Translations under genes and position numbers: made by a program
Shown: piece by piece, positions 35,134 to 48,730 of the stretch
Layout: every line of letters starts with the position of its first letter
Position numbering within the stretch: the first letter of the stretch is position 1
Notes under the pieces: model-generated
What the model was told of the DNA's origin: nothing
Database searches by the model: none
Seen by the model: the letters and a program-made list of their open reading frames with translations, nothing else
NCBI GenBank assembly: GCA_030426845.1
Contig: JAUHXR010000025.1
Span: forward strand, 1 to 48,730
Reading direction: 5' to 3'
Length of the DNA: 48,730 nucleotides
From: Polyangia bacterium
GTDB taxonomy: Bacteria > Myxococcota_A > Polyangia > Polyangiales > Sandaracinaceae

Positions 35134-35279
35134 ACGTGCACGTGCACGTGCACGAGGACGAGGACGAGGACGTGCACGTGCACGAGGACGAGGACGTGCA
35201 CGTGCACGAGGACGAGGACGTGCACGTGCACGAGGACGAGGACGTGCACGAGGACGAGCACGTGCACGAGGACGAGGAC
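35134..35279. repeat. 24-bp tandem repeat with palindromic GTGCACGTGCAC
   Basis: Unit GTGCACGTGCAC followed by GAGGACGAGGAC, with exact starts at 35172, 35196 and 35220 and shortened units at 35244 and 35262, plus a longer variant at the left end. The first half is self-complementary and alternates purine and pyrimidine; the second half is purine-rich. It lies in a convergent gap. Confidence 0.9.
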
Positions 35280-35369
35280 GTTCGGGGGCGCTGACTCCGT
35301 GGGGAGGTCTTGTTCGGGTCGGGGTTGGCTCCTTGCGGTGACTCAGGGCCGCGGGCGCCTGGTACTTGT

Positions 35370-46031: not shown

Positions 46032-46673
46032 TCAGGCGGGGGGCTGCGGCAGGCCGCCCTCCGCGTCGCGGGCCAGGAACACGAACACCCGCTCGGTTCC
46101 GTCGGGGTCGGTCTCCATGTTGGCCATCCCGGGCAGCGTGAAGCCGGGCCGGCCCATGAGGCCATCCATCGTGCCCATGGGGTCGCCCTCTTCGGCGATG
46201 GTGAGCTCGAGCCGGCACAGCGTCGCGCGGCACTCGAGGCCGTGGACCGTGACATGCTCGTTGCCGAAGGTGCGCAGGCTCTCGTCGATCGTCGACTCGG
46301 TCTGTGGCCCCCACGTCGGGTCCTGGGTCTCCGCGTCGAGGATGTCCTCGAGTTGCGATCGGTAGATCGCGCGGCGCTCGGCGAGCTCCTCGGGGCTCGG
46401 CAGCGGCTCGTCGCTCATCTGGGCCTCCCCCGCGCTCGACGGCACCTCCGCCGCATGCAGCTCTCCTTCCGTATCGCGGAGCTCCCCCTCGAGCCGCCGC
46501 AGCCGCGCCCAGAGGGCATCCGTCTGCGCGTCGTCCGTCCGCAGCTCGACCGTCCGCGCGGGCGCGGCGACCGAGGGGGTGGTGGGCGGCACCGGGTCGG
46601 CCCGGAGCAGCTCCGCCCCCGCGACGCTCAGGCCGCAGAGCGCGACGACGCCGATCCAGTGCCGCGCGTTCAC
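46032..46673 (-). CDS. Membrane-anchored or exported protein, unknown function
   Basis: The GTG at 46673 overlaps the preceding stop as GTGA; 213 residues. An N-terminal hydrophobic segment (WIGVVALCGLSVAGAELL) acts as signal or anchor. A coiled-coil-like stretch follows (LWARLRRLEGELRDTEGELHAAEV), then a helical region and a C-terminal alpha/beta domain with two Cys (HGLECRATLCRLELTI). CRATLCR-type motifs are seen in small exported myxobacterial proteins of unknown role. The long frame beyond 46673 is a shadow of the neighbouring gene. Confidence 0.6.
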   Translation of the reverse strand: MNARHWIGVVALCGLSVAGAELLRADPVPPTTPSVAAPARTVELRTDDAQTDALWARLRRLEGELRDTEGELHAAEVPSSAGEAQMSDEPLPSPEELAERRAIYRSQLEDILDAETQDPTWGPQTESTIDESLRTFGNEHVTVHGLECRATLCRLELTIAEEGDPMGTMDGLMGRPGFTLPGMANMETDPDGTERVFVFLARDAEGGLPQPPA

Positions 46674-47179
46674 TCGCCGGCCCGGTAGGAGGCGATGTAG
46701 GAGGTGCCGTCGGACGTGCGCGGCGGCAGCGTGCAGCGGATGTGGTTGTAGCCCGCGTACTGATCGCGCACCGAGTTGATGTCCCACGACAGCGTGCCGA
46801 TGTTGCTCGCGCCCCCGCCGAGGCTCGTCTTCCAGCCGCTCCACGCCCACGAGCGGCCGTAGGCCTCCACGTCGTAGAACGAGCACTGGATGCCCTCGCC
46901 GTGGTTCGCGTCGCGCAGGTGCACGCTGACGGTGCCGACCTGGGTGTTGTCGTTCTCCCGCACCATCGGGCAGAAGAGGTTCATGCTCGAGCTGTAGCTG
47001 AGGTTCGAGATGATCCCCTGGTTGTAGTAGCCCCGCGAGCCGCCGGTGCTCACGCACATCGAGCCGGAGTGGTGGAACTGCGGGTGGTAGCTCGCGAAGC
47101 TGGCGGTCGGCCCGCCCACGAGCAGGCCGAGCGCGCCGAGGACGGCGAGCACGATCGAGGAACGCTTCGTCTTCTGCAT
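46670..47179 (-). CDS. Secreted protein, unknown function (169 aa)
   Basis: A signal peptide (SSIVLAVLGALGLLVGGPTASFA/SYH) precedes about 140 residues rich in Ser, Gly, Tyr and Asn with four Cys (MCVSTGG, LFCPMV, QCSFYD, IRCTLPP). This composition and the strand pattern are seen in small secreted adhesin-like or lectin-like proteins of myxobacteria. It starts an operon with the 46032 gene. The ATG at 47179 lies about 125 bases from the left end of the dyad array, so array-binding proteins could affect its promoter. Confidence 0.65.
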   Translation of the reverse strand: MQKTKRSSIVLAVLGALGLLVGGPTASFASYHPQFHHSGSMCVSTGGSRGYYNQGIISNLSYSSSMNLFCPMVRENDNTQVGTVSVHLRDANHGEGIQCSFYDVEAYGRSWAWSGWKTSLGGGASNIGTLSWDINSVRDQYAGYNHIRCTLPPRTSDGTSYIASYRAGE

Positions 47180-47304: not shown

Positions 47305-47842
47305 GCGTCAGCCGCGACGTGAGAGTGGTCCTGCGCGATGTCGGGGGCGTCGAAGGCGACATAGGAGTTGTCCTGGGCGGAGGTCGGGCGTCGAAGGCGA
47401 CGTAGGAGTTGTCCTGGGCGGATGTCAGGCGTCGATCTCGACGTGAGAGCCGTCTTGGGGAGGAGCTCGGGCGTCGATTTCGACGTGAGATCCGTCTTTG
47501 AGGGAGGTCTGGCGTCGACCGCCACGCATGAGTCGTGGTGGGCGGGAGTCAGCCCGTCGAGGATGACGCTGCCAGGGGATTGGCTGAGCTCGTGCGTCGA
47601 TCTCGACGCGCACGGGCCCCCGTGGCTGCGACCGAACGTCGATCTCGACGGGCGTGGTGCCTGCGGCAGTGCTCCACCGTCGATCTCGACGCGAGCACTG
47701 CGGGTCCCACGCGCGCAGCGTCGATCGTGACGCTGGAGGGATCACGAGCGACGGTGCGAGCGTCGATCTCGACGTCGACCGCGTCGCAGGGCGAAGTTTC
47801 TGCGTCGCTCCTGACAACCGATCACGGCGGGTCCCGATACGA
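47305..47842. repeat. Array of 13 dyad elements with a 41-42 bp period
   Basis: The core GCGTCGATCTCGACG contains the inverted repeat CGTCGA/TCGACG around two bases. Copies start at 47305, 47347, 47388, 47429, 47471, 47512, 47554, 47594, 47636, 47677, 47718, 47760 and 47802, steps of 40-42 and a mean of 41.4. The intervening 26-27 bases are related in the left half (two consecutive units at 47347 and 47388 are almost identical over the full 41 bases) but have diverged in the right half, where only the core is kept. The mixed 41/42 step rules out a protein-coding repeat. It fills the gap between divergent genes. Confidence 0.88.
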
Positions 47843-47917: not shown

Positions 47918-48730
47918 GTGCCCGAGATGCCGCCCCACTTGACCAAGGAGCTGCAGCCCGAGGTCCTCGACGTCTCCCCGTACGTCGCCACCACCCGGTT
48001 CACGGGGACCGGCGGGGTGTTCCTCGCGCGCGCGGTGCTGCGGGCGGCGCCGCCGGTGCGCAGCCGGCGGCTCGAGGCGCGGCTGGAGACGATCCGCGCG
48101 GCGGCGGAGGCGCTGCGCGCGGTGGTGCGCGCGCGGATGCGCGACAAGACGCGGGGCGAGACGCGCGCGCTCGCGACCCGGCTGGGCGCGGGCTGGGTCG
48201 GGCTGCGGGAGGCGCTCGAGGCGCGGGCCCGCCTTGTCGGCGATCCGCTCGGCGACCGCGCCCGGGAGCTCGCCGCCTCGCTGTTCCCCGACGGCACCGC
48301 GTTCGTCCGCGCGCGCTTCGACCCGCAGTGGGTCGGCAGCCAGCTCCACCTCGAGCGCATCGACGAGGAGGGCCTCGCGCCGGAGCTCGACGCGCTCGGG
48401 GTCGGCGGGTTCCTCCCCTACATCCGCGCGGCCCACGCCGCCTTCGGAGAGGCCCTCGGGGTTGGCGCGGCTCCCGTCCCGACCCCCGACCCGACGGCGG
48501 TCCACCGCGCGTCCGCCGCCCTCGCGCGCGCCCTCGCCGACTACGGCCGCGTGCTCGCGGGTGAGCTCGAGCCCGACGACCCCGAGAGCGTCCGCGCCTT
48601 CCGCGCCGCCGTCCACCCGCTCGACGCGCACCGCCGCCGCCGCCGCGCCGCCGCGCGCCCCACGACCCCCGAGACGCTCGGGCCGACCGCCGCCGGGCCA
48701 ATCGCCGCCGGGCCGACCGCCGCCGGGCCA
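47918..48730 (+). CDS. Unrecognised protein, 3' end outside window
   Basis: The GTG at 47918, ten bases after AGGAAGG, opens a frame that stays open to the last base (271 codons seen). An ATG three codons later is the alternative. After a short strand-rich start (VLDVSPYVATTRF) the chain is helical and Arg/Ala-rich (SRRLEARLETIRAAAEALRAVVRARM, then GAGWVGLREALEARARLVGD), with a middle SLFPDGTAFVRARFDPQWVG block. It ends in a 15-bp repeat encoding GPTAA units at 48681-48730. No domain is recognised. Its promoter must lie within or next to the dyad array. Confidence 0.65.
   Translation, partial: MPEMPPHLTKELQPEVLDVSPYVATTRFTGTGGVFLARAVLRAAPPVRSRRLEARLETIRAAAEALRAVVRARMRDKTRGETRALATRLGAGWVGLREALEARARLVGDPLGDRARELAASLFPDGTAFVRARFDPQWVGSQLHLERIDEEGLAPELDALGVGGFLPYIRAAHAAFGEALGVGAAPVPTPDPTAVHRASAALARALADYGRVLAGELEPDDPESVRAFRAAVHPLDAHRRRRRAAARPTTPETLGPTAAGPIAAGPTAAGP
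48681..48730 (+). repeat. 15-bp in-frame tandem repeat cut by the window edge
   Basis: Three units of GGCCGACCGCCGCCG (the middle one GGCCAATCGCCGCCG) plus a partial fourth, encoding GPTAA/GPIAA. Confidence 0.85.

Follow-up and report, generated by a model that had tools for sequence, protein, structure and literature searches.

In an intergenic region of a contig from a Sandaracinaceae bacterium, a relative of the myxobacteria, we found 13 copies of a 14-bp dyad of the form C-GTC-GA-NN-TC-GAC-G, spaced 40 to 42 bp from start to start. Arrays of this kind occur, with other spacers, elsewhere in the genome and in a second genus, the outer dyad evolves more slowly than the spacers, and the distribution of the arrays is patchy. 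From these sequence features, we suggest that the array may be a cooperative binding site for a putative dimeric DNA-binding protein, lying within a small dispersed intergenic element—a reading to which we give about an even chance—and that the palindromes probably serve such a putative protein as repeated landing sites. The array has the conserved dyad, the regular spacing, and the free spacers of a dyad-binding array; we infer the protein, its cooperativity, and any effect on DNA or transcription. In the mechanism that we propose, one dimer would contact each dyad, whose two GTCGA half-sites point toward each other across two free bases; about 40 to 41 bp of otherwise free DNA would keep neighboring dimers at a constant distance and on roughly the same side of the helix; and these dimers, by binding together, would condense the intergenic region, loop it, or silence it. 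As a whole, the array would belong to a small intergenic element dispersed to lineage-specific places. More tentatively, and with considerably less confidence, one may think of a new class of dispersed myxobacterial nucleoprotein element, in which GTCGA-NN-TCGAC dyads about 40 to 41 bp apart would recruit a lineage-specific dimeric protein and so form a filament or a loop at particular sites between genes, core and spacing alone being under selection.

The array lies in what we call the window, the whole 48,730-nucleotide stretch of DNA analyzed here, which is the entire contig C11 of the source genome (9.4 Mb in 538 contigs) and whose open reading frames, read by eye, are chromosomal in appearance (Table 1). 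An earlier, sequence-only reading of this DNA had described 13 cores every 41 to 42 bp with a mean step of 41.4 bp, which we confirm with the inclusion of a single 40-bp step (42, 41, 41, 42, 41, 42, 40, 42, 41, 41, 42, and 42 bp), and had given the core as 15 bp, which we correct to 14 bp. Its statement that the array is noncoding also holds, as the mixed steps of 40, 41, and 42 bp keep no reading frame. The dyad is perfect in 6 of the 13 cores, five of them being exactly CGTCGATCTCGACG; another five cores deviate at one or two of the 12 palindromic positions, and the weakest are the two end units, with three and four mismatches. Scanning the window for the dyad with up to three mismatches gave 108 matches, compared to 33.8 in dinucleotide shuffles (largest, 50), and these matches cluster at the array locus.

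Table 1. Features of the array locus (positions in the window)
Feature	Position	Strand	Description
Array of 13 dyad cores	47306..47816	.	Consensus CGTCGANNTCGACG, step 40-42 bp
Core starts, units 1-7	47306, 47348, 47389, 47430, 47472, 47513, 47555		
Core starts, units 8-13	47595, 47637, 47678, 47719, 47761, 47803		
Left half, units 1-6	47306..47526	.	41-42 bp units still similar; tandem duplication (TRF, flank identity 59%); several degenerate cores
Unit 7	47555..47568	.	Degenerate core separating the two halves; followed by the sole 40-bp step
Right half, units 8-12	47595..47774	.	Cores near-identical (93%), spacers near-random (37% vs 32% expected), spacing kept
Unit 10	47664..47706	.	Core flanked by extra 9-bp inverted repeat GCAGTGCTC/GAGCACTGC; flank-shuffle z -3.1
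Unit 13	47803..47816	.	Weakest terminal core, 4 mismatches
Left neighbor	46670..47179	-	169-aa predicted exported protein without Pfam family; within the family present in this genome only
Right neighbor	47921..48730	+	Start uncertain, cut by contig end; multi-copy Sandaracinaceae family without Pfam family

A search for core and spacing in the source genome and its relatives, a check that the sequence-only reading had proposed, was carried out over the family with mismatches allowed and returned further arrays. A second, short array lies on contig C58 of the source genome (G000), with two perfect dyads, a degenerate third, and spacers that are alike. Two genomes of another Sandaracinaceae genus, G005 and G008 (the latter being Sandaracinaceae bacterium MED-G138), have two array loci each (G005:C148, G005:C128, G008:C445, and G008:C13), with five cores per array and steps of 39 to 41 bp, so that copy number varies among arrays from 3 to 5 to 13 cores. 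No array was detected in 7 of the 10 family genomes, two of these being near-complete in one or two contigs, and detection was confined to two of the six genera of the family. Across 84,980 species, pairs of exact dyads 26 to 28 bp apart occur in 18 stretches, nearly all with the 42-bp step expected of coding repeats, and the sole real array among them is that of Sandaracinaceae MED-G138. When 116 genomes were searched with a two-core covariance model, under stricter filters that short or diverged arrays could escape, scores reached up to 63 bits on the arrays described here and about 39 bits or less elsewhere; the places checked among its candidates in other families contain no chains of good cores. 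A search for further arrays by a period-42 pattern was swamped by coding sequence, the dyad pair gave no match in viral contigs, and a literature search for such arrays found nothing. Lone perfect cores are frequent in all family genomes, array-bearing or not (45 to 223 per genome), probably through codon usage, and because they are so common no regulon can be defined from them.

The related-genus arrays show which parts of the unit vary. In G005 and G008, variable columns make up 1 of 50 in the outer ten core bases, 7 of 20 in the inner four, and 25 of 112 in the spacers, so that the spacers are about ten times as variable as the outer core (Fisher P = 0.0008, from the few events in four arrays that represent two loci in two species). 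Cores evolving as fast as the spacers, the outcome that the sequence-only reading had named as speaking against it, were thus not what the relatives' arrays revealed. For the window locus there is no orthologue with which to compare it. When the flanks of the window units were compared to those of the C58, C148, and C128 arrays, their similarity did not exceed that of shuffled flanks; unrelated spacers therefore go with the same core and a step that is nearly the same. Such recurrence is what selection on core and spacing would predict and what a neutral satellite would not, and it supports, across loci and genera, the earlier view that selection acts on the core and not on the spacers. The C58 and C128 flanks have some similarity to each other in reverse orientation, and homology of the window's array ends with those of the related genus, which had been noticed on inspection by eye, was unsupported in a shuffle test.

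Within the window, the contrast between the two halves that had been noticed from the sequence alone was reproduced: flank identity is 59% in units 1 to 6 and 37% in units 8 to 12 (random expectation, 32%), whereas core identity is 84% and 93%, respectively. That the left half grew through tandem duplication, also part of that reading, agrees with its flank identity and with the 41-bp tandem that Tandem Repeats Finder calls in this half only; its cores are less perfect, and units 2 and 3 are duplicated copies of one mutated core. In the right half, spacer length has been kept despite spacer sequence being near saturation. The minisatellite-like left half counts against the dimer array and leads to an alternative in which a unit with a palindrome that arose by chance was multiplied through slippage or unequal exchange, was copied to a few loci, and is now decaying as a nonfunctional palindromic minisatellite. 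Such an origin, which we regard as unlikely, would agree with the left half being an ordinary tandem repeat of 41 bp in which degenerate cores too are duplicated, with the copy number differences among arrays, and with their detection in two genera only, at lineage-specific positions. However, it would leave unexplained why the right-half cores are near-identical and their spacing kept among near-random spacers, why the outer core of the related genus varies so much less than the spacers, and why the core is the same where spacers are unrelated. Compared to minisatellites and VNTRs in general, the array is similar in the 41-bp tandem repeat of its left half and dissimilar in that its right half keeps core and spacing only and in that arrays with unrelated spacers have the core in common.

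The helical placement of the cores stands only in part. All cores had been proposed to lie on one face of the helix, which is true of the window steps at a helical repeat near 10.35 bp per turn (phase vector, 0.96) and not at 10.5 bp (0.16). For the steps in G005 and G008, the phase vector is at most 0.60 across the helical repeats tested. The mean step of 41.4 bp in the window contrasts with about 40 bp (39 to 41) in the related genus, which contradicts exact four-turn phasing as a conserved feature and, since strict phasing is not conserved, also argues against the dimer array. If dimers bind, neighboring ones would be near one face in the window.

A palindrome may act as a double-stranded protein site or as a hairpin. 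Hairpins tolerate compensatory changes, and an RNA hairpin would favor GU on one strand. Comparing 26 cores, we found GTC...GAC all but invariant, the innermost pair loose, and changes in the half-sites unpaired; compensatory change was absent from every core pair (0 of 12 altered on both sides), and the fifth core pair reads GT five times and AC four times, with neither strand preferred. Because there are no compensatory changes and no strand bias, a double-stranded protein site is favored over an RNA hairpin. We consider it very unlikely that the array is transcribed into a structured RNA or forms a series of single-strand hairpins, in which each core would be a five-pair stem with a tetraloop and outer arms would pair further. 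On either strand, the array region folds better than its shuffled versions, more strongly on the plus strand (z -4.6) than on the minus strand (z -3.5), but repeated palindromes alone can produce such values. The flanks of the units have weak extra dyad symmetry with modest flank-shuffle z-scores, and extended outer arms are complementary in several units (9 bp in unit 10), which as a whole is suggestive. In an arm-swap test, this outer-arm complementarity gave P values of about 0.01 to 0.05 for units 8 to 12, as a hairpin would have it, but of 0.15 to 0.47 for all 13 units. Rfam has no family for the array, its one match being a sub-threshold chance match outside the array. For a simple dimer model, in turn, the weak extra flank symmetry is superfluous and thus a point against it.

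The genes around the arrays are unrelated to one another: they comprise the 169-aa orphan, the multi-copy family, a histidine kinase, a small predicted lipoprotein, DUF222/HNH genes, and a sulfate permease. Divergent gene pairs flank the window array and those at both loci of G005 and G008, in line with the earlier suggestion of a multi-operator that would serve its two divergent neighbors. We now consider such a role highly improbable, given that the neighboring genes change from locus to locus, that the C58 array lies between convergent genes, and that the paralogues of the right neighbor, whose family reaches about 12 matches in a Sandaracinaceae genome and has five in its own, have no arrays upstream.

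The positions of the arrays point to dispersal. The C58 array follows a 202-aa gene, and none of the eight relatives that have this gene carries an array behind it, which indicates that the arrays are lineage specific in place. In six of these eight relatives (three other genera), the next gene resembles holA by eye; the gene beyond the C58 array is unlike this holA-like gene, a difference that suggests a point of rearrangement. The interval from the 202-aa gene to the C58 array contains a strong terminator-like hairpin, GAGCCGAGG...CCTCGGCTC (L206, about 2130 to 2180), and a small GCACGAGGACGTCTCACGT-like direct repeat is found in two to three copies downstream of that array (L093, about 1650 to 1700). 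In each of G005 and G008, the two loci are 87% alike over about 266 bp including the array, the alignment ends just beyond the array, and the surroundings are unrelated. Copies with sharp ends at unrelated loci are a feature of mobile elements, and the arrays could be the repeat region of a small nonautonomous element, with the dyads as transposase or recombinase sites served in trans. This alternative, which we find rather improbable, shares protein contact with the dimer array and differs in its selfish role. It would fit the absence of an array behind the 202-aa gene in the relatives, and also the adjacency of each of the two related-genus arrays to a multi-copy DUF222/HNH gene (13E12-like; one copy at L123:8434-9816, minus strand). 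On the other hand, nothing clear in the way of terminal inverted repeats or target duplications was seen by eye at the ends of the 266-bp copies, each genome has just two copies of this stretch, the majority of HNH genes lack an array, and no homologue of the DUF222/HNH protein was found in the window's genome. Beside the other DUF222/HNH copies we found no arrays, one chain score being too lenient to add more. This mobile-looking gene family has about 11 matches per genome in G005 and G008, mostly >80% identical (L122, L123, L124, and L125); the nucleotide similarity of the copies ends close to the start codon, and for this reason the gene seems to move without its own promoter.

Several known systems resemble the dimer array in part. 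Plasmid iterons and centromeres of the parC/tubC type are usually direct repeats on plasmids near rep or par genes; they are likewise regular tandem binding sites with constant spacing, whereas the present array lies in chromosomal-looking surroundings with no rep or par gene recognized adjacent to it. REP/BIME and REPIN sequences occur in hundreds of copies, often paired, with a RAYT transposase; they too are dispersed intergenic palindromes, in contrast to the few loci and the fixed step of the present arrays. With CRISPR arrays the present one has in common a short palindromic repeat and spacers of constant length, but the repeat is 14 bp (of which the outer ten bases are conserved), compared to roughly 21 bp or more, the spacers of the left half are alike, and spacers are also alike at the two related-genus loci, unlike the unrelated, singly acquired spacers of CRISPR, so that the earlier judgment that this is not a CRISPR array is sustained; a PADLOC scan of the two genes flanking the array gave no match. 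The nucleoid protein CdbA of Myxococcus xanthus recognizes a GC-rich sequence, which makes a binder of this general kind conceivable, but its motif, with >500 sites, is a direct repeat separated by 4 bp (PMC7156744) and not an inverted repeat as in the arrays here. A parallel in arrangement is the parS cluster of M. xanthus, with 22 copies of TGTTCCACGTGGAACG over about 3 kb near oriC and parAB (PMC3899335, PMC3778016): in both cases many short palindromes form one cluster in a myxobacterial chromosome, and in parS they are bound by dimers of ParB. Yet parS has no 41-bp step, the arrays described here are found at two loci in each genome that has them and went undetected in most relatives, and the parS consensus with up to three mismatches has no match in the window. 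The sequence-only reading had considered a centromere-like site or a general nucleoid anchor; this is not supported, given the family genomes, near-complete ones included, in which arrays went undetected, and an essential centromere is unlikely because arrays were detected in a minority of family genomes and sit at lineage-specific places.

If the arrays are binding platforms, the 13 sites within about 510 bp would be a ready-made bait to find a DNA-binding protein of large-genome myxobacteria, in which intact cores and cores that have degenerated naturally would serve as internal controls. In that case, the arrays would also illustrate the spread and maintenance of an operator array when only core and spacing are under selection. 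Selfish or satellite-like arrays would instead offer a clear example of a palindrome preserved among freely drifting spacers. Other repeats in the window are an ACGAGC-type short tandem repeat of 6, 18, and 24 bp at 35134-35280 and a 15-bp CGGGCCGACCGCCGC repeat at the contig end (48679-48729), inside the reading frame of the right neighbor.
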